From Flavobacteriales bacterium (GTDB lineage: Bacteria > Bacteroidota > Bacteroidia > Flavobacteriales_D > Sanyastnellaceae), in NCBI GenBank assembly GCA_002863125.1, contig PKEB01000017.1, forward strand, positions 1-38,780: a DNA stretch of 38,780 nucleotides, in the 5' to 3' direction. The notes below the pieces were generated by a model. The model was not told the origin of the DNA, did not search any database, and worked only from the letters and a program-made list of their open reading frames with translations. Every line of letters begins with the position of its first letter. Position 1 is the stretch's first letter. A program made the translations under genes and the position numbers. Positions 4,977 to 21,442 of this stretch are shown here, piece by piece.

Positions 4977-6173
4977 TCACGGGCGCTCATACGTCAAGTA
5001 GGCCGCCACGTTCCAAAAGTTCATTTCGGATTCAGTGAACTGTTGTGCGGTCGGCACATCGATAATCAATTCATGCATTCCGGCGTTGAGGTCCCCCAAG
5101 GACACTCGCACCGGCGGTACATCGCTACCTGGGCACCATCCCGAACGCGAATAATCACTCGATGCAATGCGTTCATCGAGGCTGTCTCCCCTCCAGTAAG
5201 TGCGTTCCATCCAAACCCCGGATGTGGGGTTGAACCGCCGAAAGCTCGCACAGTCGTCTCGCCATGGCGTAAACGACAGGCACGTCTCGCCATCCCACGT
5301 GACGTGGTGTTCGCAACGCACAAATTCATCACCCGTTCCATGACCGCCGTGTCCGGTGGCGGTGTAGTGCAGGACCGCATTGGCCGCTGGTTCGTCGAGG
5401 GCCACATTCACCACTAAAGGCGCTCTCGCAAATCCGTCGTAGGCGGTTTGTTCGCTTCCAAATTTTGACGTGTTCACTAGCGGGAGGGTGGCCAACGATT
5501 TGCCCGGAATGACCGTCGCGGGATTGGGGTCGAAATCCAGTTCAACATCAAGGGTGTACCCTTCGCTTGTCCACGTATCGATGTAAACCCCAAGCGTCGC
5601 AGAATCACCCAGCGCTTCCCACAGATGGCTAATGTCCGCTGTCCAATGCACCGAGTCCTCCCACTCGGGGATGTACACGGGTTTGTATTCGTCCAACGGC
5701 TCGGACGCGCTGAAATGGCCTACGCCGAATGGGGTGATAAAGCGTAACAGCTCAAGGGTGGGTTGGAATCCGGAGCCCGCCTCGTTGAGGGCAATGCCCG
5801 GATAGTTTGCATGCGCTAAGGTGTCCCGGGCAAATCCCACATCCAGCAAATTGAGAGCCGCATCAGGAAGCAGGACCAACGAACCCGATTTATCCCAAGG
5901 ATCACCGGCGGATCTCAACGTTACGTGAGCGGTGATGGTCGGCCGGATATCAAAAGAGGGAATGCCGATTTTACGCGTCAGGAACCGTCCGTTGTCCCAG
6001 CGGAGCCAGCCATCGTCCGCACGGAGGGAGTCCCAGTTGGTGGATGGCGCAAAAAAGATGTGCGTGCTGTCCATGCACAGGACGGAGGCATCCCGCTCTT
6101 GACCTTGAGGTGAATGACACGAAAAAAGGGCAAAAACAACCATACCAATCGACCAGGGAAAGAACTTCGTCAT
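4977..6173 (-). CDS. PNGase F-like (peptide-N-glycosidase F related) lipoprotein
   Basis: The protein has 398 residues with a lipobox LFSC (Cys19), so it is probably membrane-anchored. Comparison with remembered Elizabethkingia PNGase F shows matching landmarks in order: PWDKSG at 92-97 (PNGase F EWDRY, catalytic Asp60; here Asp94), RFITPFGVG, YIDTW at 197-201 (PNGase F YTETW, Glu118; here Asp199), YTLDVELDFDP, then GHGGHGTGDEFVR (PNGase F Glu206; here Glu283), FTPWRDDC, and RSGWCPGSDVPP near 343 (PNGase F RAGWCPGMAVPT). The two-lobed PNGase F fold hydrolyses the Asn-GlcNAc amide bond to release N-glycans. The primary catalytic Asp and Glu positions are kept, with Glu118 changed to Asp. Activity is therefore plausible but not certain. 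It is divergent from an exported esterase 57 bases away. Confidence 0.8.
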   Translation of the reverse strand: MTKFFPWSIGMVVFALFSCHSPQGQERDASVLCMDSTHIFFAPSTNWDSLRADDGWLRWDNGRFLTRKIGIPSFDIRPTITAHVTLRSAGDPWDKSGSLVLLPDAALNLLDVGFARDTLAHANYPGIALNEAGSGFQPTLELLRFITPFGVGHFSASEPLDEYKPVYIPEWEDSVHWTADISHLWEALGDSATLGVYIDTWTSEGYTLDVELDFDPNPATVIPGKSLATLPLVNTSKFGSEQTAYDGFARAPLVVNVALDEPAANAVLHYTATGHGGHGTGDEFVRCEHHVTWDGETCLSFTPWRDDCASFRRFNPTSGVWMERTYWRGDSLDERIASSDYSRSGWCPGSDVPPVRVSLGDLNAGMHELIIDVPTAQQFTESEMNFWNVAAYLTYERP

Positions 6174-7523: not shown

Positions 7524-10079
7524 TCACTGTCCTTTGATGACCTGAAGCGAACGAGGTCCATTTGCTGTTTCCAGCACTACAACGTATTTCCCGGCTGGCC
7601 AAGCGCCTGACGCCAGGACCAATGATGACGCGTTGGCCACATTCTGCTCGTGAACGATGCGGCCGCTGAAGTCGACCACGCGCACGGATTCGACATCCTC
7701 CCCCAAGCTGAGGTTGAGGGTGCTCGTGAACGGGTTGGGGTACGCCCAATTCTCGGGTGCTTCGAAATTTGCCACCGCGTTTGGCTCAACCACCTCTGGT
7801 GCGGGGAGCAACGAGTCGAGTGGGAAGCTCAACAAGCTCCGCGCGAACGTGCCCGCAATGAGCCGGTTAGTGATGGTGTCCGCGTCGACATCGTACACCG
7901 GAATGGTGGGCAAGGTGCCCACGGGTTCCCAATTCGCTCCGCGGTTCAATGTGGCGAACACGCCCGCGTCCGTTGCCACCACCCAAATGCTGTCGTTGAG
8001 CGCGTGGATCTGATTCACAGGATGCTCGGGCAGGTCGCCTTGGATGGGCTGCCATGATTCACCGATGGCCGCGCGGAAGATGAAGGGGGAGTACACAGCA
8101 TTCCGGTAGCCGCTCACCGTGCAGAACATGGAGTCCGGGTGGTAGGGGTCAAATTCGACGTCCGTGACGAATTGCCCCGGCAATCCTGTTTCCATGGGTT
8201 GCCACGAATCGCCGTGGTCCTGCGAAATCCACACCCGACCGTCCGTCGTTCCAGCGGCAACGACATCCGCGTCGAAATGCGACCCTGCGAGGGCGCTTAC
8301 ACACCGATAGGACAGGCCCGGTTCGGTGGCGTACGTCAGGTCCTCGCTGACTGGCTCCCACACGTCGACGGGAGCGTCTTCCATGCGGTACACACGTTGA
8401 GAACCGGTCCACATTTCATCGGGGTTGGACGGGTGGTAGATCAAGGGCGCATCCCACCAGACGCGGTCCTCTTCCTCAATGCCGTAAGTGAAGTCGTTCC
8501 ACTGGAGTTCTTCACCCGGTTCGGTCATGCTGAACCGCCAATTGCCCCATTGGTACCCAGCATACCGGAGCGCGGGGTCGGTGGGGTGGTAGATGGCGGT
8601 GAAGCCATCGCCGCCGAGGTCTCGGGTCCATCCACCCAAGTCTTCGTAATTGCCCGTGGTCGTTCCGTTGTCTTGTGCACCGGCTGTGTAGAATCCCGGG
8701 TTGTGTGGATTCCACGTGGCGCGGTAAAACTGGGTGACGGGGATGTCTTCGAGGTCTTCCCACGTCGCGCCGTGGTCCTCGGTTTTGTAGAGGCCGCCGT
8801 CGGTGGCCAAAATGCACGTCTCCGACCCCAGCCACTGCAGGTCGTGCTTGTCGGCGTGCACCTCGTAGGTCCACCATTCCGGCCCCATTAGGTTCCAGTT
8901 GGCTCCGCCGTTGACGGAATTCCAAAGATTCACCCCGAGGATGGTGATGTCATCGGGATTGAAGGGGTTGATGCGCACCTTGGAGAAGTACCATCCAAAT
9001 CCGCCTAAGGCGTTCTCGGGTATGTTGTCCTCTGGGATGACGGCACTCCAGGTTTCTCCGCCATCGGTGGTGCGGTACAAGTTGTCCAGTTGGCTGTCTT
9101 GTCCGACCACGAGGGCGTAGACGCCTTGGGAAGAGTGGGCCAATCCGATGCGCCCGCGTTCCCCTTGGCCCCAGGGATTGGGAATTGCTTGCCAGTTGGT
9201 TCCGTTGTCCACGGATTTCCAAATGCGGCAATGCGGTCCCCACACTTCACTGGCCGTCGAGTTGCGTGTTCGCTGCCATGCCGCCGCGTAAATGGCCTCC
9301 GTATCGGGGTCGTACAGCAGGTCGGTCACACCCGCAGAATCATTGGGCAGTAACACCTGTTCCCAATTGACCCCCGCATCTGCGCTCCGAAACAGTCCAC
9401 GGTACGCGTTGGGCTGGGCGGGTTTTCCCATTGCTCCAGCGAAGAGGACGGGAGCTGCTCCGTCCAAACCAGGAACAAACAGCAATTTGCTGATGACTCC
9501 CATGGAGTCCAGCCCCATGTTTTCCCACGAGCCACCGCCGTCCAATGATCGGTAGATCCCGTTTCCGATGCGCGGGAAACTGCTGATCTGCGGGTCGCCG
9601 GTGGCCAGGAATATCCGATCGGGGTTGCCGGGGTAAAAGGCCAAGTCACCCATGGCCATGGCAGGAAAATCCTCTGTCAGGGGTTGCCACGTGCCGCTGT
9701 TTGATCCCTTCCAAAGTCCGCCTGCGCTGCTGCCTGCGAAAAGCGTCACGGGGTCATCGGGGTGTTGTCGGATGAAATTGAACCGTCCGCCAATGTTCGT
9801 GGGGCCTTCCAACCGCCATTCGCCCTCGATGTTTCGCGCTCCTGCTCCCTGTTCCGTGTGCTCGCGTTTCCACCGATCGACTTCGTCCAAGAGTTGCGCG
9901 GCATGCCACGCATCCCAGTCCGCATCGGGTGCCGACCACTTCCAGGCTTCGGCTTCGAATGGCTTTAGTTTCTTGAATTCAACCGATGCCTCAGCCTCAG
10001 GCTTCATCGGGGAACAAGTACAAAGCAGCAAGGTGGCTGCAGCGGCAATTAAGTAGGCAGTTGGGTTCAATCGAATCAT
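7524..10079 (-). CDS. BNR/sortilin-like beta-propeller exoprotein with T9SS type A sorting domain
   Basis: The protein has 851 residues from the ATG at 10079, whose A is shared with the stop of the upstream gene (TGATG), implying coupled translation. A longer frame exists upstream but lies inside that gene. The N-terminus MIRLNPTAYLIAAAATLLLC is a hydrophobic signal with Cys residues that look like a lipobox. The body holds many BNR/VPS10-type motifs of the form SxDGGxxWE (SLDGGGSWENMG, TTDGGETWSAV, TEDHGATWEDL, SQDHGDSWQPM, NRGANWEPVG), and its start resembles EGPTNIGGR families. This predicts one or two beta-propellers. The C-terminus (YPNPFTSTLNLSLG to SLQVIKGQ) is a T9SS type A domain. 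Function is unknown: a surface-binding propeller or a glycosidase-like enzyme. It is the last gene of the operon containing blh. Confidence 0.85.
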   Translation of the reverse strand: MIRLNPTAYLIAAAATLLLCTCSPMKPEAEASVEFKKLKPFEAEAWKWSAPDADWDAWHAAQLLDEVDRWKREHTEQGAGARNIEGEWRLEGPTNIGGRFNFIRQHPDDPVTLFAGSSAGGLWKGSNSGTWQPLTEDFPAMAMGDLAFYPGNPDRIFLATGDPQISSFPRIGNGIYRSLDGGGSWENMGLDSMGVISKLLFVPGLDGAAPVLFAGAMGKPAQPNAYRGLFRSADAGVNWEQVLLPNDSAGVTDLLYDPDTEAIYAAAWQRTRNSTASEVWGPHCRIWKSVDNGTNWQAIPNPWGQGERGRIGLAHSSQGVYALVVGQDSQLDNLYRTTDGGETWSAVIPEDNIPENALGGFGWYFSKVRINPFNPDDITILGVNLWNSVNGGANWNLMGPEWWTYEVHADKHDLQWLGSETCILATDGGLYKTEDHGATWEDLEDIPVTQFYRATWNPHNPGFYTAGAQDNGTTTGNYEDLGGWTRDLGGDGFTAIYHPTDPALRYAGYQWGNWRFSMTEPGEELQWNDFTYGIEEEDRVWWDAPLIYHPSNPDEMWTGSQRVYRMEDAPVDVWEPVSEDLTYATEPGLSYRCVSALAGSHFDADVVAAGTTDGRVWISQDHGDSWQPMETGLPGQFVTDVEFDPYHPDSMFCTVSGYRNAVYSPFIFRAAIGESWQPIQGDLPEHPVNQIHALNDSIWVVATDAGVFATLNRGANWEPVGTLPTIPVYDVDADTITNRLIAGTFARSLLSFPLDSLLPAPEVVEPNAVANFEAPENWAYPNPFTSTLNLSLGEDVESVRVVDFSGRIVHEQNVANASSLVLASGAWPAGKYVVVLETANGPRSLQVIKGQ

Positions 10080-13000
10080 CAGCGAATCAACAAGATGTGG
10101 CCTTGCAAAGTTTTGATGGCATACGCATCGTCCCGCAGCACAGCCTCGTAGTGGTATACGCCATCGGGTGCAAAATGGTCGCCTCCTTGTACGTCGCCTA
10201 CCCAATGTTCCTCGGGGTCCTCAGATGCGAAGACCAAGGAGCCCCACCGGTCGTAGATGTGCAGTTCAAAGCGCGTGACCGCGCCGCTGGTGTACATGCG
10301 CCAGGCGTCGTTGTGTCCATCGTTATCCGGGGTGAAGGCATTAGGAGCAAAAGCATTCAGCCCCTCCGCCAGGTCAATCACGGCGCATGTCAAGGACGAG
10401 CAGCCCAGACTGTCCTCTGCTTGCAAGCAAAGTTGGAACAGGTCCAAGCCAATTTCAGGAATGGAAAACGATTGATAGGTGCCTTGTCCCATGGTCGTTT
10501 CGTCTACATGCCACGTGTACGTGTTGGTCGGGATGGAATCCGAAGCCCATGCCTCGATGTTGGTGTCGAAAATGGATGCCTGCGCTGGGGATAAATTGAA
10601 CGCGGAGGAAGGTGGAGCACCGAGGCAGAGCAATTCCTCGGCCGAAGCTGTGTTCGTGCATCCATTGTTATCCAAAACGGTATGGCTCATCAGGTAGCAG
10701 CCCGGGTTTTCGATGACAAAAAGATTCTCCTCACAGCCCATGGATCCCCCTACGCCATTGGCGTTGTACGTCCATTGGCAGTCCACAATGCTCGGATTCA
10801 CCGGTGCGCTGCACTCAATCACCGCGGGTGCACATCCTTCAGCAGGTGCATAAGTGAAATCAGCATTGGGCAGGGCGTGAACGGTGACTGTAGCATCCGT
10901 TGTCGTTCCGCAACTTCCCGGAATGGTGTAGGTGATGGTGTGCACCCCCGTACCCGCAGCGGAGGGTGAAAACTGTCCGGCGGTTGAAATGCAATTGACG
11001 CACGATGCGGACCAGTCACCTCCTGCTTCGTCTGCCACGGCGGTGGCTGGATCATGGTCCAAGCAATACTCAGGGATCAAGGAAAATGCGCTGCTCGTAT
11101 TCGGCGTCACGGTGAACGTGGCCGTGCCTGTTGCTGGACACGTCCCGTCGATGGTGTACGTGAGGTCCCACGTGCCGGTCCCGGCGATTTGCGTGTCAAA
11201 TACGCCTTCCGAAGTGCAGCAGTTGGCGCATTCGGCGGTCCAGCTGCCGCCATTGGTGACGGGCACCATCACCACTTCACCCGTGCCTTCGCAGAAACTC
11301 TGGTCATCGATTCCGGCGTCTGGGACGCTTCCAATTTCCACCTCTACCGTAGTTGTCTGCGCACAAAGGTTGTCGGACGTGTACGTGATACTTACGGCAC
11401 CGGGCGATGCATTCGAAGGGGACAATTGGCCATTTGCCGACAGGCAGTCTGCACAAGTTCCCGCCCAGCTTCCGCTGTACAAATCGTCGGTCGTTAGCAG
11501 CACCGTTGCCGCATCGTTGCACACGAATTCCGGAGCGGTGATTTCCACCGGTTCGGGAGAACTGAGGCTGACCTGAACCTCAGATGGTACCATCGGGCAT
11601 CCGTTGTTGGTGCCACTCAACGTGTAGGTGCCGCCATCTTCGGCTGCAGTGGAGGCGATAAACAACGTCTCTTCGGCGAAGGCATCCCCATTGGGCAAAG
11701 TCCATTCCCATACGGCGTCGGCGAGTGCCGCATTCGGTTGCAATGTCAGGCTGCTTCCCTCGCAAATTTCGATGGGCTCCGTGTCGAGTGGAGCTTGTAT
11801 CGTTTGCGTTACCACGAGTTCAAACGTCGTCGGCTCAGAAAGGCACGACTGGGCTTCGATGACCAACGTGTATTCCCCGGCGTCGGAAGGGTCGGCATTG
11901 GAATAGGAGGCAGTGCTGTCGCCCTCGGAAATGAGGTTGCCTTCAGCATCTTCCCAAATCCAATTGTTCGCCGGTGTCAAGGAAGTAAACGACCAGTTAT
12001 CTCCTTCGCACAGCGCGTCGATGGGTGCGACCTCCGGGGCAGGAGGCTGTGGGGCAACAAAAAGCTCGAGGGTATCCGGTAAAATCTCACACTCACCGGC
12101 CATCCCTGAAACCAAGTACAGTCCGGCATCTTCAACGGTTAACGGACCGATGGTAATTTCATCGCCTTCGGCTTCGAATCCGTTGGGTCCGATCCATTCA
12201 TAGGAGGCTTCCAAAATGGGGGAGGCAAACAGCTCTGCGGTCTCCCCGGCGCACAATTCATTGTCCGAAGCGAATGTCGAGTGCTGGTAATTGGAGAAGT
12301 CGCTGAAGTAGCCGTAACGCGTTCCTGAAGAAGCGCCTCCGTTGATGATGCCGAGGTGGAACTTTGCGGTACCGTTGACCAGTCGAGAGGCACCGCCTGT
12401 GGGGACGAATCCCGATGCGGTGATGTTGGCGTACATCCATTCGCCTTCCGTTCCGGGCACATCGCTGAAGTTCACCGCGTTGATGTTGCCGACATTTCCA
12501 TTGAACGTGAAGTCTCCCTCAGCCCCTGAGGGCACGATGATTTTCATGCCGATGAAGTCATTGCTCGATCGCACGAAGGCCACTTCATCCGACCCGGTGC
12601 AGGTAATAGGCGGCAGGATGGCACCGCCGACTTCGCAGCCGAATCCGGTCATGTGCAGCGCGACCACGGGCGCGCTCGTCTCGTAAAAAGCAGCCGGTGC
12701 GCTCAAGGTATGCGCATACGTTTCACCTGCATTAATTGTCCAGACGTTGGTGCCGTTGATGGAAATGGACGTGTTGTCCTCGGTCCCCACGATGAAGACC
12801 TTGTCGGGTCCACCTAAGTTGCCTTTGATGGCAATGTATTCCTTGCCTGCCACGTCAACAGGAATGACTTGGTCACCCATAATGTCATAGCAGCCACTCG
12901 GGTTGAAAGGTGCACCAAGGAGGCTGTCGTCACTGATTGTGACTGCAATGGGCGCGGAGCTTTGGATCAACGTGCCAGAAGGGTGCGATATGGCCAAAAC

Positions 13001-13615
13001 CGAAGCTGCTCGCAGCGCATAAGTTTCCCCTTGATTCAATTCAATGACAATTGGCACGCCGGCTGCATAGCCTGTTAGTGCAGCTGTCGGTGTAACCGTG
13101 ATTTCAGTACCGTCCTCCGTTGCCACAATATCGATGCTGGCGGTGGACTGTTGGTACACATTATCTAAGTAGTTTTGGAAGGGTACGTAGAACGTTTCTC
13201 CCAGCGCCGATGCCCCTTTTAAAGCAAAAATGTCTGGATTGTTAGGGTGGTTGATTTCATAATAAGCAGTCACGGGTGCGTCCGAAATGATGCGAAGGCC
13301 TTTCTCCAAAACCGTGTTGAACGGTTTGTTTTCAATGTCACCCAACCACGGCGTGAGGTCCAGGGTTTGCGTTCCATTGGCTGGTATGTTCAAGGTTTGG
13401 ACTGGAAACGTCGGGTTAGCCGGCTGGTCGACGGTCACTTGAGCGGCCTCTGCCAAGGTCGAAAAGCGCAACAGAATGGGGTCGTCACCGTGGCCATCCC
13501 ATACCTCAGGGGCGACAAACCAGAACTCCGTATCCAACTGTCCGATGGCCCCCGGCAAACTGCACGTCTGGGCCAGACACAACACGGTGAGCAAGCGAAG
13601 AACACGGGTGATCAT
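10079..13615 (-). CDS. Giant surface protein: IgGFc-binding-like N-terminus, Ig-like repeats, T9SS type B (CHU_C) C-terminus
   Basis: The protein has 1178 residues from the ATG at 13615, giving a signal peptide (MITRVLRLLTVLCLAQTC to AIGQ). A longer frame upstream overlaps blh and is rejected. After cleavage come LDTEFWFVAPEVW and about 430 residues resembling the IgGFc-binding protein N-terminal domain (VATEDGTEITVTP, YIAIKGNLGGPDKVF, GVCGxG-like VALHMTGFGCEVGGA). Ig-like/PKD modules introduced by LCAGE, LCEGD, ICEGS and FCEGT follow, including three related modules with CxxC motifs (CADC, CANC, CVNC). The end (FAPNAFTPDNDGHNDAW to GHILLIR) is the gliding-motility type T9SS sorting domain. 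A role in adhesion, gliding or cell-cell contact is inferred. It is a clear paralogue of the 14508-17918 protein and is separated from it by blh. Confidence 0.88.
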   Translation of the reverse strand: MITRVLRLLTVLCLAQTCSLPGAIGQLDTEFWFVAPEVWDGHGDDPILLRFSTLAEAAQVTVDQPANPTFPVQTLNIPANGTQTLDLTPWLGDIENKPFNTVLEKGLRIISDAPVTAYYEINHPNNPDIFALKGASALGETFYVPFQNYLDNVYQQSTASIDIVATEDGTEITVTPTAALTGYAAGVPIVIELNQGETYALRAASVLAISHPSGTLIQSSAPIAVTISDDSLLGAPFNPSGCYDIMGDQVIPVDVAGKEYIAIKGNLGGPDKVFIVGTEDNTSISINGTNVWTINAGETYAHTLSAPAAFYETSAPVVALHMTGFGCEVGGAILPPITCTGSDEVAFVRSSNDFIGMKIIVPSGAEGDFTFNGNVGNINAVNFSDVPGTEGEWMYANITASGFVPTGGASRLVNGTAKFHLGIINGGASSGTRYGYFSDFSNYQHSTFASDNELCAGETAELFASPILEASYEWIGPNGFEAEGDEITIGPLTVEDAGLYLVSGMAGECEILPDTLELFVAPQPPAPEVAPIDALCEGDNWSFTSLTPANNWIWEDAEGNLISEGDSTASYSNADPSDAGEYTLVIEAQSCLSEPTTFELVVTQTIQAPLDTEPIEICEGSSLTLQPNAALADAVWEWTLPNGDAFAEETLFIASTAAEDGGTYTLSGTNNGCPMVPSEVQVSLSSPEPVEITAPEFVCNDAATVLLTTDDLYSGSWAGTCADCLSANGQLSPSNASPGAVSITYTSDNLCAQTTTVEVEIGSVPDAGIDDQSFCEGTGEVVMVPVTNGGSWTAECANCCTSEGVFDTQIAGTGTWDLTYTIDGTCPATGTATFTVTPNTSSAFSLIPEYCLDHDPATAVADEAGGDWSASCVNCISTAGQFSPSAAGTGVHTITYTIPGSCGTTTDATVTVHALPNADFTYAPAEGCAPAVIECSAPVNPSIVDCQWTYNANGVGGSMGCEENLFVIENPGCYLMSHTVLDNNGCTNTASAEELLCLGAPPSSAFNLSPAQASIFDTNIEAWASDSIPTNTYTWHVDETTMGQGTYQSFSIPEIGLDLFQLCLQAEDSLGCSSLTCAVIDLAEGLNAFAPNAFTPDNDGHNDAWRMYTSGAVTRFELHIYDRWGSLVFASEDPEEHWVGDVQGGDHFAPDGVYHYEAVLRDDAYAIKTLQGHILLIR

Positions 13616-13635
13616 GGCAATTGGGTGGGGAGATG

Positions 13636-14511
13636 TCAACGTCGGCGTTTGGTTGTAGCCATTAGAAACCAATGCGACTCGAAGATATGGGGAATGCTGA
13701 TGCAACCCAATAACATAAAAAACGCGCCAACCGTTGCATCCGACTGTACGGCTTCCGGATTGCCCAGCCCCCACATTCCGAGGCCGATGAGTGCGAGGGC
13801 ACCCACCGTAAAAGGCAGGGCTTTCATCCATAAGGATTTTGAAGAAAGCCCCAATCCTTCTCGAAGGTGATGCCAGCCCGAAGCGCTGTGTTGGCCGATG
13901 AAGTACAATCCGAACGACAACAAGACAGGAATCCAAGGGGTGAGGCCAATCAGGGCAATGGCGAGTCCCCACGTCCAGTGCTTCATGCGCAAAGCGGCAA
14001 TTCCACACGCAATCAACCCGGCAGTGAACCCAAATTGCAATTCATCCTGCACCTGCACGAGTGCTTCGCAAGCGCCTGAGGAGACGCCCATCTGGGCAAT
14101 GATGGGGTTGACTTCTTTCACGTGCCAACCCAGGATCATGCCCAATGCGACCGTTCCCCAAGCCATGTGGCCTTTTGAAATGCCCCACCGTTCAAAATCC
14201 GCCTGCCCAAAATGCCAAGCGCTGAGGAGCAGGAAAACGAGGAGGCCCGCATGCGGGAAAATCCACCAAGCGCCAAGGATCCCGGCGATGGCCAAGAGGT
14301 AACTCAATATATACAAGCCTGAATGACGTCCGGGCGACCGGTGGCGGTGCGTCCATACATCCAACGCGCCGTGTGGAATGCCAACAGCCAGCAATCCGAT
14401 GAGCAACAGCGCCCCCAAAAACGAGTCTACCCAACTCACACCTCCCGCGTCGAAACCGATGTAGAGCAGCGCGACGACCAATAGGCCAACCGGTCGGATG
14501 TAGCCGTTCAT
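13636..14511 (-). CDS. blh: Brp/Blh family beta-carotene 15,15'-dioxygenase
   Basis: The protein has 291 residues and is strongly hydrophobic, with several membrane-spanning helices. The conserved His-containing motifs of the Brp/Blh family are all visible: GIPHGALD (His47), SAWHFGQADF (His100), YFIGQHSASGWHHLRE (His208, His214, His215) and SIPHIFESHWF (His275, His280). These His residues bind the catalytic iron. The enzyme splits beta-carotene into two molecules of retinal, the chromophore of proteorhodopsins, in the inner membrane. The start ATG overlaps the upstream stop by four bases (ATGA), and the next gene begins 20 bases after its stop, so it is embedded in an operon with two giant T9SS surface proteins. 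In marine Bacteroidota blh normally sits beside a rhodopsin gene; none is in this window. Family call is very secure; use of the retinal is not shown here. Confidence 0.94.
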   Translation of the reverse strand: MNGYIRPVGLLVVALLYIGFDAGGVSWVDSFLGALLLIGLLAVGIPHGALDVWTHRHRSPGRHSGLYILSYLLAIAGILGAWWIFPHAGLLVFLLLSAWHFGQADFERWGISKGHMAWGTVALGMILGWHVKEVNPIIAQMGVSSGACEALVQVQDELQFGFTAGLIACGIAALRMKHWTWGLAIALIGLTPWIPVLLSFGLYFIGQHSASGWHHLREGLGLSSKSLWMKALPFTVGALALIGLGMWGLGNPEAVQSDATVGAFFMLLGCISIPHIFESHWFLMATTKRRR

Positions 14512-17500
14512 CGCACCAAGGTTAGGCTTCCAAACAGCCGAATGGGGCCGGGTTCAGTGAAGGTGGTGGTGCCGTTTTCATCCGTTATGCTCAAGTCGCC
14601 TTCGTTGCGGTTGATGACGACCTCGTAGTAATAGGTGCCTTCGACGGCCTCCTCGGGAGTGGGTTCCCAACCGGCGGCGTTGCCAAAGTCTTGCGACTCG
14701 TACACCACTTGGCCCCACCGGTTGAAGATGCGGCAGGTGCTGAATGGGAAATACGTCAAGTCCGGCAATGCGAAGCGCTCGTTCTGCGCGTCCTGATTGG
14801 GCGAAATGATATTGGGGACGACCAAGGCGCACAACACGGTCGTCACATCGAACGTCCCTTCGGCCGTTAAGTTGCACGGAGCCCCCGTGTTCAAAAACGC
14901 GGTGTAAACGCCGTCGTACAAAGCCACCATCCCGGGGCCTTCTCCGAATTCAATCGTGTTTTCATCGCTGTCTGTGTAGGTCCACTCCACAGCGTACAAC
15001 GGGTCCCATTCTGGCAAATCCAAGGCCGGCGTATTGTCCGGACAATGCTCGACTTCGATGGGGCCAAAGTTTCCGGCAATCACCTCAGGGAGTGGCGCAA
15101 TCTCCAGTTCTGCGGAGACAACTGGGGATGGGCAGTTCGACTCTATGACGTACACTTCATAGGTGCCGGCAGCACCCAACGGCACGGCATCCAGTGGCCA
15201 TGTCTCCCCGGTGAAGGCGCCCCAATACGGATGGAACCAATGGATGGTACCGTCGCTCGCCGCTTCAGCACTCAGTGACCAATCTGAACCTTCACAGATT
15301 TCTGTAAACCCACTCAGCACGGGAGGCGCGGGGGTTGGAAATACATCGAGGTACACCGAGTCGGGAAGCATGGGGCACGTGCCCACCGCGCCGTTGACGA
15401 CGTACCACCCGGATTCATCCGGTTGCACGTTGTTGAGGGTCACGGATTGGGCGCTGGAATTGAAGTTCGCTGGCCCATTCCACAACCAGGCCGTGCCATC
15501 GGGGCCGTTGCCGTCTAGGATCCATTCATCGCCTTGGCAGATTTGGTCGGCTTCAATTGGACTGCCGTTGGCATCCAAGATGTCGAGGCTTTGCTGGGGG
15601 ACGAGGCTGAAATCGAAAGCCTCTGGTCCTGCGATGCAGCCGAGGTAATTTACGCTCACGCTGTACGCTTGTGCATCCGCCCAATCCGCCTCCGCAATCA
15701 CCCATGGATTCCCGGAACCCAAGCTGTCCCCATTGGCATCAAACCACGTTACAGCCGCGGTTCCGTCAGAGGAGTAGTTGGCGTAGAATGTCGCTTCATT
15801 CCCAAGGCACACGGCGGGTGCATCCACGGATTGAATGACCGGGTTTTCAATGATCTCCACCCAGGTTGAATCCGGTAGCAGCGGACACCCTTCCGCTTCG
15901 CCTTGCACGGTGTACCAACCGGAATCCTCAGGTTGGCTGTTGTTCACCTGCACACCCACTTGGTTTCCCATGGCTTGACCATCCGGGTTGGTCCAGGCAT
16001 AAGCGGCCCCGGCAATCTGAAGGGCCTCCAAGGTGAAGTTTTCAGTTTGACACCAGGTTGCATCGTCTGTTGAAATGTTGAGCGCTTGCTGCGGGATGAC
16101 TTCCACGTCGAACAACGTCGGCGGAGAAAGGCACCCGTGGTCGTTGACGACGAGCGTGTAAATGCCATCGTTGTCGAGGGTGACGGACGCCTCGGCAATG
16201 CTGTCTGCGCTGGGATAAAATCCGTCGGGTCCGGCCCATTGGTACTGCACCGTTTCCAACGGGGTGGTGGAGAGCACCAATGGGGCGCCTTCGCACACCA
16301 CTGAGTCCCCTGAGATTTCGGGAGCTTCTGGGAACGGGTAGACCAACAGATTCAGGGTGTCATTTTCGATTGGACACGCACCGACAAAGCCGGAGACTAT
16401 GTATTCCCCGGCATCGCCCAATCCGACTTCGCCAAACGGGAAAGGATTGCCTTGCCCGGAGAACCCGTTCGGTCCCGTCCAATCGTAAGTGGCTCCAAAA
16501 AGCAGGTTGGATTCAAGCTCGAGTTCATCCCCCTCACACAGTGTATTGTCATCCACTTGAACGATGTAGGCTTGAGCTGCGTAGTTGCTGAAGTACCCGT
16601 AGCGCGTGCCCGAAGATGCCCCGCCGTTGATGATTCCCAAGTGGAAATTGGAGGTCGAGTTGTACAAGCGGGAGGCGGATAACTGCGGTACAAAAGACGA
16701 GGCGGTGATGTTGGCGTATTTCCATTCGCCATCCGTGCCCGGGACGTTGCTGAACTGATTCGCATTGATCAATGCGGGATTTCCGTTGAATTCAAAGTCG
16801 TCTTCACCTCCGGCCGGCACGAGGATCTTCAATCCAATGAATTCGTTTGTGGACCGAATGAAAGCGACTTCCTGAGAGCCGGTGCACACAATGGGAGGGA
16901 GCAACGCGCCGCCTACTTCACACCCGAATCCGGTCAAGTGCAACGCATATACTGGACTGCTGGCTTCGTAATACGCCGAGTTTGCATACAAGGTGTGCGA
17001 ATAGATGGAAGTCAAGTTGTTTAGCGTCGTGACCACGTTGCCATTGACGGAGATGGTGGTGTTCGCCTCGGTGGGGATGAAAAACACCTTGTCCGGCCCG
17101 TTGAGGTTGCCTTTGATGGCGATGTATTCCGTTCCGACAATGTCAATGGGGACAATTTGGTCGCCGAAGAGGTCGGCACAGCCGCCGTATGGTGTGCCGT
17201 TGAGGGAGTCATCGCTGATGGTAATGGCAATGGGATTGTCCGAATTGACAACGGTCCCGAAGGGATGTTGGCTCGCCGCCGTGGATGTCGCCCGTCCGCT
17301 CCATGTTTCGCCGGCATCCAAGGTGATGGTAAACGTGACATTTTGTGGATGTCCGACGATGGGTTTTCGCGGTGTGATTTCGATGGTGGTGTTGTCCTCG
17401 GTGGCCACAATGTCAAAACCTGCGGGCGACTGCGTGTAGCCGTTATTCAAGTAATTCTGAAAAGGAACAAAAAATGCGGTACCCAGTGCGTTTGCGCCTT

Positions 17501-17918
17501 TCAGCGCGTAGATGTCTGGGTTGAGATTATTGGATGGGTTCACCTCGTAATAGGCTTGGATCAGCGCTGTGGAGGTGATTTTCAGCCCCTTGGTCAAAAC
17601 CGTATTGGCAGGCTTGTTTTCGACCAAGGAGAGCCAAGGCGCCAAATTGAGGGAGGAAACGCTGTTGGCGGGGACCGAGATGGTTTGCGTGGGAAACGCT
17701 CCATTGGCCGGCTGTTCCACGGTGACGATGGCGGCTTGGTCAAACGTAGCGAAGCGCAGGAGCGTCGGACTGTCGCCATGATTGGCCCAAACCTCCGGAG
17801 CGACAAACCAAAATTCGGTGTCGACCTGCGCGTGCACGCGACCGAGCCCGCTCAGCAAGCAGGCCATCAGCACGAGGTACACCAGGGGGGAGAGCCGTTT
17901 CAAATTCAAGTCAATCAA
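14508..17918 (-). CDS. Giant surface protein, paralogue: IgGFc-binding-like N-terminus, Ig-like repeats, T9SS type B C-terminus
   Basis: The protein has up to 1136 residues. The signal peptide is KRLSPLVYLVLMACLLSG to VHAQ, followed by VDTEFWFVAPEVWANHGDSP, nearly the same as in the 10079-13615 protein. The homologous N-terminal block (YIAIKGNLNGPDKVF, LHLTGFGCEVGGALLPP, LGIINGGASSGTRYGYFS) continues for about 430 residues. About six Ig-like modules follow, each introduced by CEGD, CEGA, CLGN, CQGD or CEGS, and then a T9SS type B end (VVPNIISPNQDAQNERFALP to SLTLVR). No in-frame ATG precedes the signal peptide. The frame has TTG codons at 17918, 17909 and 17903, the last giving the best signal peptide, and the first ATG is at 17867 within the hydrophobic core. 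The exact start is therefore uncertain. It is the first gene of the four-gene operon. Adhesion or gliding-related function is inferred. Confidence 0.85.
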   Translation of the reverse strand: MIDLNLKRLSPLVYLVLMACLLSGLGRVHAQVDTEFWFVAPEVWANHGDSPTLLRFATFDQAAIVTVEQPANGAFPTQTISVPANSVSSLNLAPWLSLVENKPANTVLTKGLKITSTALIQAYYEVNPSNNLNPDIYALKGANALGTAFFVPFQNYLNNGYTQSPAGFDIVATEDNTTIEITPRKPIVGHPQNVTFTITLDAGETWSGRATSTAASQHPFGTVVNSDNPIAITISDDSLNGTPYGGCADLFGDQIVPIDIVGTEYIAIKGNLNGPDKVFFIPTEANTTISVNGNVVTTLNNLTSIYSHTLYANSAYYEASSPVYALHLTGFGCEVGGALLPPIVCTGSQEVAFIRSTNEFIGLKILVPAGGEDDFEFNGNPALINANQFSNVPGTDGEWKYANITASSFVPQLSASRLYNSTSNFHLGIINGGASSGTRYGYFSNYAAQAYIVQVDDNTLCEGDELELESNLLFGATYDWTGPNGFSGQGNPFPFGEVGLGDAGEYIVSGFVGACPIENDTLNLLVYPFPEAPEISGDSVVCEGAPLVLSTTPLETVQYQWAGPDGFYPSADSIAEASVTLDNDGIYTLVVNDHGCLSPPTLFDVEVIPQQALNISTDDATWCQTENFTLEALQIAGAAYAWTNPDGQAMGNQVGVQVNNSQPEDSGWYTVQGEAEGCPLLPDSTWVEIIENPVIQSVDAPAVCLGNEATFYANYSSDGTAAVTWFDANGDSLGSGNPWVIAEADWADAQAYSVSVNYLGCIAGPEAFDFSLVPQQSLDILDANGSPIEADQICQGDEWILDGNGPDGTAWLWNGPANFNSSAQSVTLNNVQPDESGWYVVNGAVGTCPMLPDSVYLDVFPTPAPPVLSGFTEICEGSDWSLSAEAASDGTIHWFHPYWGAFTGETWPLDAVPLGAAGTYEVYVIESNCPSPVVSAELEIAPLPEVIAGNFGPIEVEHCPDNTPALDLPEWDPLYAVEWTYTDSDENTIEFGEGPGMVALYDGVYTAFLNTGAPCNLTAEGTFDVTTVLCALVVPNIISPNQDAQNERFALPDLTYFPFSTCRIFNRWGQVVYESQDFGNAAGWEPTPEEAVEGTYYYEVVINRNEGDLSITDENGTTTFTEPGPIRLFGSLTLVR

Positions 17919-17994
17919 TTGGTTGGAGCAAGGTAATTATTTCAACGCAACGAAAATGCGTTTGCTCCCGTATACCGCACAAGAAAAGAATCCC

Positions 17995-20176: not shown

Positions 20177-21442
20177 ATGCGGTGTTCACACCTCAATTCG
20201 ATTTCAACGTTGGTGTGGTCAGGAATTTTCTTGGCCATTGCCGTGGCATTTCCTGCGGTGAACTTGAGCCAGCAATCCCTGCATTCGATTCAATTCGATG
20301 CGGGTTCGGGTGTTGCTTGCAATCCGATGCAATCCACTGCATCCGGGTTGGTGGGGACTTCAGCCGCTTCGCTGAAGGGATGGGGCCATCAAAGCACGGG
20401 GCGCACGCTCATGCACTGGAAAGGCTCGCTGAATCACGAAGCGTACAACGGGCAGCCCGCAGCGAACCAATTTCGGATCAATGGACACGTGGGCCTGCGC
20501 CGGGCCCTCGGCGAGCATGCGGAAACCGGCATTGAAGCCGGAGTTTCGCAGGGGACAGTATGGGAGCGAAGCATGCGGTACCGGGAGGAATGGCGAGCAT
20601 TTGATGCCGGCCATTGGAGCGGCGCGTGGTGGATGGCATTGCGCAGTGAAGGACGAACAGGCCGGATTTATGTCGAAAAACACGGCTGGAATTACGGGGC
20701 CAACCTCGGATTTGATCGCGGTGAATTTCACGTTGGCGGGGAAGTCCGCCTTCCCATTTTGACGCGTGTTCGGGGCCACATCCGCTTGAACAAAATTGGC
20801 CAACGCCGAACCCATCACATGGCGGATTTGGTCTTTGCGCTCCGCCACTGCGAGAAGCAATTTCGCAATTGGGCCCTGAGTGAGGGAGCGGTGGGTAACG
20901 GCCTTGATTTCCGTTCAGCAGCGCGCTCCGCGGCTGGGTCGGAATGGATGGGCTACCGAATGTGGAGCGAAACCGAAGGGGAGGTGCGTCTGGAGGTTCC
21001 GGAACACCGAGGCCTCAGCGGTGGTGTTGAAATGGCATGGAGGCACCGCGTCGATGCCGTGCGTGGTACCTACGATGAGGACCGCGCCCTGGTTGGGGCG
21101 TGGATTTCAGGGGCAAACCGCGCTTGGTCCGGTAAAGCCCGGTGCACGTGGAATGCTGTCCACAGTGCTGGCCAGGCCGTTTACAGCGAGCACGGTTGGG
21201 ATACTTACCGGTACAACCACGTGGTGTGCGAAGGACGCTTGGAGCGAACGATTCGAGGAGATGTGGGGGCTTTCGTCGCTGGTGGGTTGCAGCTGTGGCG
21301 GTCGAACGCCCTACCTGTTGGATGGTACCAGCGATCAGATTGGTCCTCTGGCTGGATCCGTTGCGGTATCGTGTGGCAGGCGTCAACGGCTCCGCGTTGG
21401 GAGCGACGTCACACCTTGAAGCGCAGAATCCCTGTAGAGTAG
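20177..21442 (+). CDS. Exported protein of unknown function within the nucleoside gene cluster
   Basis: The protein has 421 residues from the ATG at 20177, beginning with a signal-like segment ([19 protein letters not shown]). The rest is rich in Trp, Arg, His and Gly with alternating hydrophobic and polar residues ([39 protein letters not shown]), which suggests a beta-rich envelope protein, possibly a small outer-membrane barrel. I do not recognise a family. It lies 24 bases after cdd and 35 bases before the CNT transporter gene, all on the plus strand, so co-expression is likely. An outer-membrane channel or surface binder for nucleosides would fit the context, but this is inference only. 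Confidence 0.65.

Follow-up and report, generated by a model that had tools for sequence, protein, structure and literature searches.

The beta-carotene 15,15'-dioxygenase gene blh in the stretch of Flavobacteriales DNA analysed here (38,780 nucleotides, hereafter the window) is located between two tandem paralogous genes for type IX secretion (T9SS) surface proteins, surfA and surfB. This order was conserved in relatives within one group of uncultured bacteria, the content of the slot between the two genes was exchanged in a sister clade, one Blh and one proteorhodopsin (PR) were found in the genome, and Blh was placed in trees beside fusions of lycopene cyclase and Blh (CrtY-Blh). Probably, the sole visible Blh feeds the unlinked PR, a fusion-derived domain has come to reside in a surface-protein operon, and the link serves the expression of blh. 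The arrangement resembles a gene settled at a favourable expression site more than it does a light-controlled attachment switch.

Gene layout and surface proteins

The genes of the locus are encoded on the minus strand. The first, surfA (14508..17918), encodes a secreted protein of the cell surface whose IgGFc_binding and Ig-like domains are accompanied by CHU_C, a type IX secretion domain, and its uncertain TTG start at 17918 is an upper limit, with the true start possibly slightly downstream. It overlaps blh (13636..14511, Brp/Blh family, 291 amino acids) by four nucleotides, ATGA. The blh stop is followed after 20 nt by the ATG of surfB at 13615 (10079..13615), and the surfB stop TGA at 10081-10079 contributes its A as the first base of the ATG at 10079 of a BNR/sortilin-type protein gene (7524..10079). 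These spacings were as claimed in a preliminary description of the window, and the paralogy claimed there for surfA and surfB was confirmed by 51% identity across about 720 residues. Upstream of surfA, a block on the same strand (17929..17957) was conserved in an alignment of seven genomes of the window's subclade, with a 21-nt insertion breaking it in G021, and is a candidate promoter or 5' leader of the unit.

A Pfam scan identified IgGFc_binding (PF17517) in surfA (1.9e-28) and surfB (9.9e-34) and CHU_C over the cut-off in both (1.3e-13 and 1.3e-15, respectively). The NCBIfam T9SS type B model TIGR04131, with a cut-off of 35 bits, was matched at 48.6 bits by surfB and at 29.6 bits, under the cut-off, by surfA. 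The BNR protein contained Sortilin/BNR repeats and a type A sorting tail (Por_Secre_tail, 28.5 bits, cut-off 27), and a C-terminal type IX sorting domain was consequently present in each of the three proteins. The description of surfA and surfB as giant was generous (1136 and 1178 amino acids). Gliding-specific features were absent from the Pfam and NCBIfam scans, which included no SprB/RemA-type adhesin domain among the matches. The two proteins share the domain make-up of T9SS (CHU_C) surface proteins with IgGFc_binding but occur as a tandem pair of paralogues separated by varying metabolic genes. The pairing of IgGFc with type IX secretion had no match in a literature search that covered mostly non-subscription papers.

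Slot content across the genus

Twelve of the 22 genus genomes, the window's included, had the order surfA-blh-surfB; genus and family groupings here are the codes of the genome collection used. The BNR gene came next in eleven of these, the contig of G006 ending within surfB, and the conservation of order that the preliminary description had proposed to look for was thus found. The ATGA overlap was kept in 12/12, and this recurrence shows that the layout is not due to chance. An identical junction in 12 assemblies also led to rejection of a misassembly or an oddity of the window alone. An apparent 325-nt junction gap in G002 was likewise rejected, since the ATGA there is intact and is followed by a run of N that marks a gap in the assembly. 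The locus neighbourhood was largely syntenic within the genus.

The slot held blh in all 12 clade I genomes in which it was visible. The six genomes of the sister clade (clade II) kept the surfA, surfB, BNR order with a different slot, which held a SulP/STAS permease in four and was empty in two. In the remaining genomes the slot was at a contig end (three) or the locus was not found (one). All slot-blh genomes were on one side of a seven-gene tree and the SulP or empty genomes on the other, and the slot-Blh tree broadly followed this topology; G006 and G008 fill less than half of the columns of the seven-gene tree, and the long branch of the G008 row is an artefact of a surfA fragment entered as surfB. 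A blh belonging to a different lineage was present outside the slot in five of the six clade II genomes, in two of which the assembly had it in fragments. Identity of the slot Blh with this blh was rejected as they formed separate clades (three of the five clade II sequences in the tree). Across the operon, the gaps held unrelated metabolic genes, namely blh, the SulP permease and a CoA-synthetase-like gene.

Stop-start coupling is proposed because the surfA 3' end in the window, CGATGA (an Arg codon and the stop), supplies the ATG of blh, which would probably be read from the surface-protein transcript in this way. The clade II surfA genes ended in CGTTAG, CGATAG, CGATAG, CGCTAA and CGGTAG, with CGATGA in G013, and the mostly missing ATGA suggests that the motif goes with blh, with the caveat that these six genomes are not independent.

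A light-linked lifestyle programme had been suggested, with retinal production coupled to attachment or motility. Retinal would then be co-regulated with the surface proteins, and attaching cells would shift PR capacity up or down. The retention of ATGA in every slot-blh genome though Blh identity to the window's protein drops to 42%, together with the constant presence of blh in the clade I slot, would fit such a programme, and long ATGA retention could itself mean selection for co-expression. With so syntenic a neighbourhood, however, stability alone is weak evidence, and the sister clade kept the surface operon but had other contents, or none, in the slot, Blh there being encoded elsewhere in five of the six genomes. 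PR and the slot blh were also on different contigs wherever both were found. A light-linked adhesion switch was therefore not supported and is considered quite improbable. A similarly low probability is given to the related proposal that transcription of the surface operon sets the retinal supply, and hence PR capacity, clade-wide through one mRNA and the stop-start overlap. The acceptance of unrelated metabolic genes in the operon gaps instead suggests that the link serves blh expression and not a joint light-adhesion function.

Blh protein and proteorhodopsin

Membership of Blh in the Brp/Blh family was indicated nearly full length by curated models, with matches to Pfam BCD PF15461 (1.2e-28, 100.9 bits, cut-off 28) and TIGR03753 (121 bits, cut-off 95.25). 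Residues H47, H100, H208 and H275 were invariant in 22/22 aligned Blh. The metal-binding residues of the 66A03 enzyme are given as His21, His78, His188 and His192 in PMC9227343. The first three of these are fitted by H47, H100 and H208 in order and spacing, with 66A03 itself outside the alignment and His192 left unmapped. An AlphaFold2 model was all-helical with a mean pLDDT of 92.2, and searches of solved structures returned no convincing relative (one chain at E 0.11 in one search, none at E <= 0.001 in the other). The dN/dS of blh was 0.10-0.155 in 6/6 pairs, with dS > 1 in four of them, and exceeded the surfA value of these pairs by a factor of about 1.5 to 3, blh being the faster-evolving gene. 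A pseudogene or a second copy was rejected as one copy was found, the frame was open and selection was purifying.

Retinal is the light-absorbing part of the light-driven pump. The window genome (98.7% complete) contained one Blh, on contig C21, and one PR, on contig C19, as well as the beta-carotene pathway. Its carotenoid operon included CrtI, CrtD, IPP isomerase and CrtYcd over the cut-off and phytoene-synthase-like and CruF-like proteins under it. The earlier reading of blh as embedded in a run of surface-protein genes, with no link to rhodopsin, was borne out, as blh was not beside rhodopsin in the manner of a PR-blh photosystem gene cluster. The rhodopsin sought elsewhere in the genome was located on the other contig, and the case of a degenerate blh accompanying an intact rhodopsin-linked copy did not apply, since this was the sole Blh found.

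PR was found in 10/12 slot-blh genomes, on a contig other than that of blh in 10/10, and was not found in G006 (95% complete) or G001 (73%). These two genomes, and the position of Blh on a divergent branch near the fusions and less constrained than surfA, would be consistent with a use besides charging PR, such as production of another apocarotenoid or action on another substrate. Against such a use are the ten genomes with PR, G013 (85% complete), in which the slot was empty and neither Blh nor PR was found, and the window genome, in which no other Blh was found to charge its PR. Another use of the Blh product is unlikely, given the family match, the co-occurrence with PR, the purifying selection and the conservation of the histidines, and we see only a slim chance for it. 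The slot Blh is probably an ordinary retinal synthesis enzyme, which as the only visible one in the organism would supply the unlinked PR.

Origin of the slot Blh

The 80 best loci of one scan were taken for comparison, 371 relatives being counted. Among these 80, 69 were outside the genus and 67 of those were CrtY-Blh fusions, and in 35/67 a PR gene immediately precedes the fusion in the same orientation. In the larger tree, which sampled 24/67 of the outside fusions, the slot Blh formed one clade (95/89) inside the fusion clade and sister to the G045 CrtY-Blh fusion (100/99). In the smaller tree (16/67) support was 69 for the slot clade and 94 for its joining with G045. The larger tree excluded L103 and the smaller also L101, L104, L107, L115, L116, L117 and L118, two clade II sequences were excluded, from G011 (two frames) and G014 (two in-frame stops), and the G002 Blh contains a run of N. 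In the PR tree, the group labelled family standalone Blh-linked takes in five fusion loci (L108, L110, L112, L114 and L119), and eight genes were entered twice under two locus ids, with only 22 of the fusion-linked PR rows included.

Fission of the slot Blh from a CrtY-Blh fusion is favoured, not proven, by these placements. The domain would most likely have separated from a fusion of the kind often found after rhodopsin in Bacteroidota and have come once to lie between the two tandem surface-protein genes. A standalone slot Blh that was ancestral or independently relocated, with the G045 fusion arising separately, is rather doubtful. AU tests did not reject it at 5%, whether the fusions were constrained to a clade that excludes the slot Blh (p = 0.051, lnL 14.5 worse) or slot and standalone Blh to a clade of their own (p = 0.0528), but the larger tree nests the slot clade within the fusions. 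Also against it, a CrtY relative was detected in 0/22 genus genomes, by a search without a positive control, and in none by Pfam in the window genome, and CrtYcd was present in 18/22. Loss of the cyclase half would be tolerable as the carotenoid operon has an independent CrtYcd-type cyclase.

Genomes from outside the genus showed no surfA-surfB tandem, 0/21 having two matches on one contig with only six candidates scored per genome, although G045, two pieces of which were at contig ends, may have one. Both directions of slot change are therefore compatible with the data, and the slot of the genus ancestor could have held blh that was then lost in clade II.

Promoter patterns

A sigma-70 scan identified four promoter-like sites, where 5.5 would be expected from shuffled sequence, and nine terminator-like sites, where the expectation was 12.8. 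Two of the promoter-like sites were on the strand of the genes, one within blh and one spanning the blh-surfB gap, with none in surfA. The Bacteroidota-type promoter has the consensus TTG-N17-23-TAnnTTTG. When 11 of the 12 slot-blh genomes were scanned, the full pattern was absent 5' of blh in 11/11 and 5' of surfA in 11/11, and its absence before blh is uninformative on blh because it was equally absent before surfA. A lone -7 element preceded blh in G021. The full pattern was found before surfB, inside blh, in 3/11 genomes (G001, G004 and G010), and from these matches surfB may not depend on the surfA transcript.

Relation to known systems and implications

In marine Flavobacteriia, a rhodopsin-blh gene pair has been described (PMC5932025). 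As in that description, PR co-occurs with a dioxygenase of the Blh family that should provide its chromophore, whereas here the two are on separate contigs and blh is between surface-protein genes. The nearest relatives outside the genus are the Bacteroidota CrtY-Blh fusions (PF05834 and PF15461), often directly after PR, but here the cyclase half is absent and the cyclase of the genome is of the CrtYcd type. Blh is also joined with carotenoid enzymes in the CrtI-CrtB-CrtYcd-Blh four-domain protein of Thecamonas trahens (PMC10016063), although this is a eukaryote with a different cyclase type and order, and the Blh here stands alone. No report of a bacterial CrtY-Blh fusion was recognised in the literature searched, mostly non-subscription papers and including the portions available of PMC10016063, PMC5877348 and PMC2889829.

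The slot blh would be overlooked by surveys that search for retinal synthesis next to rhodopsin alone, and such Bacteroidota could then be scored as lacking the means to charge PR. The locus is a traceable case of a Blh, with relatives among the PR-linked CrtY-Blh fusions, that is kept in a new operon without a cyclase or PR neighbour, and of an operon gap filled by different lineages with different metabolic genes. If the switch reading were true, cells displaying the surface proteins would also charge the light-driven pump, and if expression proves to be joint, the locus would provide a testable model for the coupling of light use to surface proteins.

Organisation of the surface-protein operon

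The layout surfA-blh-surfB-BNR proposed in the preliminary description was confirmed, with all four genes on the minus strand. The surfA (17918-14508) and surfB (13615-10079) products were paralogues of each other by sequence comparison, each carrying an IgGFc_binding domain and, at the C terminus, the type IX sorting domain CHU_C. Between them, in the position termed here the slot, is blh (14511-13636), encoding a predicted beta-carotene 15,15'-dioxygenase that scores over the PF15461 and TIGR03753 curated cut-offs, which overlaps surfA by an ATGA and is followed after 20 nt by surfB, and this shares one base with the gene for a protein with sortilin/BNR repeats and a Por_Secre_tail (BNR, 10079-7524). 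A conserved block upstream of surfA, TGAAATAATTACCTTG, was kept in the seven aligned genomes, differing at a single base in G006, and is the leading candidate for where this putative unit starts. Elsewhere in the window are a PNGase F-type peptide N-glycosidase with both N-glycanase domains (4977-6173), adjoining a monomeric isocitrate dehydrogenase and with a relative in twelve other genus loci, and a very fast evolving 421-aa protein without a Pfam match (20177-21442; identity in the genus 88% down to about 21%) between highly conserved neighbours.

Purifying selection on blh was indicated by dN/dS of 0.10-0.155 in six of six pairs, with stricter constraint on surfA (0.04-0.09). The structure model of Blh was all-helical (pLDDT 92), and four histidines were invariant in 22 of 22 aligned sequences (11 slot, 5 fusion and 6 standalone). 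Among His21, His78, His188 and His192, given as essential in the 66A03 enzyme in PMC9227343, three fit invariant Blh histidines by order and spacing while the fourth was unmapped.

Rhodopsin and carotenoid genes of the window genome

The assembly (2.27 Mb, 98.72% complete, 0.02% contamination) contained one Blh, that of the window on contig C21, and the search for a rhodopsin elsewhere returned a single gene on contig C19, beside what we take to be Maf-like and selenophosphate-synthase-like proteins. Its protein contains a helix-G lysine and RYVDWILTVPLMCVEF, in which D, T and E occur as in proteorhodopsins (PR) that pump protons. This PR (L003:10339-11052) shared only about 71-84% identity with the others of the genus, including 80.6% with that of G020, a genome whose surfA is 93% identical, and may have been replaced by transfer.

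A genome search found no PF05834 lycopene cyclase. A CrtYcd-type cyclase (PF18916, TIGR03462) was located on contig C12. Clustered with it were CrtI, IPP isomerase and CrtD, all scoring over cut-off, and phytoene-synthase-like and CruF-like proteins, which scored under it. From these genes the organism is probably able to make beta-carotene, with the window Blh as the only visible retinal source in the genome.

Slot content across the genus

The genus comprised 22 genomes under the grouping code used. A PR was present in 18 and a Blh match in 18, seventeen above the family cut-off and G017 below. The search of relatives recovered surfA-blh-surfB in twelve (G000, G001, G002, G003, G004, G006, G009, G010, G012, G015, G020, G021), with BNR next in eleven; the G006 contig stops inside surfB. 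Conserved order alone is weak evidence of joint function, since the flanking genes are mostly syntenic as well. The slot held a SulP/STAS permease in four sister-clade genomes, G011, G014, G018 and G019 (by locus number, not in genome order: L088:8361-10091, L089:8015-9745, L091:4362-6092, L092:9004-10746; Pfam run on two), was empty in G005 and G013, and was out of view at contig ends in G007, G008 and G017. The surfA-surfB locus was not found in G016, which is 64% complete.

A CoA-synthetase-like gene (PF00501, PF16177) was upstream of surfA in thirteen genomes of both clades, three of them with an ATGA end there too (G003, G010, G017); none of the seven genomes in the subclade of the window showed it. 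Given this gene and the changing slot content, the metabolic genes of the operon differ between lineages. Another addition, a DUF2805 gene, lies between surfB and BNR in G011 (L092:5017-5457).

In all twelve slot-blh genomes surfA ends in ATGA and this ATG is the blh start, while the distance from blh to surfB is variable. The surfA ends of the six clade II genomes were CGTTAG, CGATAG, CGATAG, CGCTAA, CGGTAG and, in G013, CGATGA, so a surfA end can supply the ATG by itself. Strict ATGA retention goes with blh presence, and the twelve cases are not independent events because the genomes are related.

A seven-gene tree of 21 genomes split clade I (twelve with slot blh, three unseen) from clade II (four SulP, two empty), and the slot-Blh tree was in broad agreement; a single insertion, before or after this split, followed by vertical descent would therefore fit. 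Another Blh lineage, standalone and separate in the Blh tree, was found in five of six clade II genomes, in two frames in G011 and with two stops in the G014 frame. In G005 this blh and the gene for a CHU_C/Calx-beta surface protein lie tail-to-tail (L023:6741-9101), so that blh again adjoins a T9SS gene yet is outside its operon. The genus PRs grouped together irrespective of the Blh type carried, and a g18 sequence and one further sequence (L190) also fell within this group.

Origin of the slot Blh

Slot Blh formed one clade (support 95/89), whose closest neighbour in the tree, as sister (100/99), was the Blh portion of a lycopene cyclase-Blh (CrtY-Blh) fusion from G045, another genus of the family, and the enclosing clade consisted mostly of such fusions. 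Among the best 80 of 371 relatives in a genome scan, all 11 genus loci had surfA-blh-surfB (uncultured assemblies titled Flavobacteriales (8), Crocinitomicaceae (1), Bacteroidetes (1) and bacterium (1)), and the 69 outside loci comprised 67 fusions and two short or edge-cut frames. A PR was in the examined locus for 38 of these 67 fusions, in 35 on the same strand at most 300 nt upstream, and IgGFc-type or similar proteins lay within the examined DNA of six of the 69 loci, no closer than 2.2 kb to the fusion. Outside the genus, twelve loci were read and none showed surfA and surfB in tandem, but two G045 pieces stop at contig ends.

Fusions of PF05834 and PF15461 (about 610-700 aa; L133-L201 (67 of 69), L108, L109, L110, L112, L113, L114, L119) occur commonly among Bacteroidota, in many cases immediately after PR; Pfam confirmed both domains in seven of seven scanned, and literature searches recognised no bacterial report.

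Fission of the Blh domain from such a fusion was ahead by 14.5 log units, just short of formal significance (AU p = 0.051), and is the favoured origin on these trees. CrtY was found in none of the 22 genus genomes, in a search without a positive control. A genome with CrtYcd would be able to tolerate losing the cyclase half, and CrtYcd is present in 18 of 22 genus genomes and several fusion-bearing ones (G030, G038, G045, G046, G064); it was not found in the fusion-bearing g12 genomes G053, G055, G056, G058 and G059.

Rhodopsin and blh are described in PMC5932025 as frequently adjacent, with blh second only to PR itself in its enrichment among genomes that have PR. Within the family but outside this genus, PR and blh shared a locus in 15 of 20 sampled loci, and PR linkage is therefore the common state there. 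The preliminary description had suggested a light-linked switch in which retinal production is coupled to surface attachment or motility; this is weakened by the exchange of blh, permease and empty slot, and is needed to explain none of the observations. The best account is that a retinal enzyme was relocated into a surface-protein operon. The slot blh would probably be expressed from the operon transcript, and its retinal would feed a PR encoded elsewhere in the genome.
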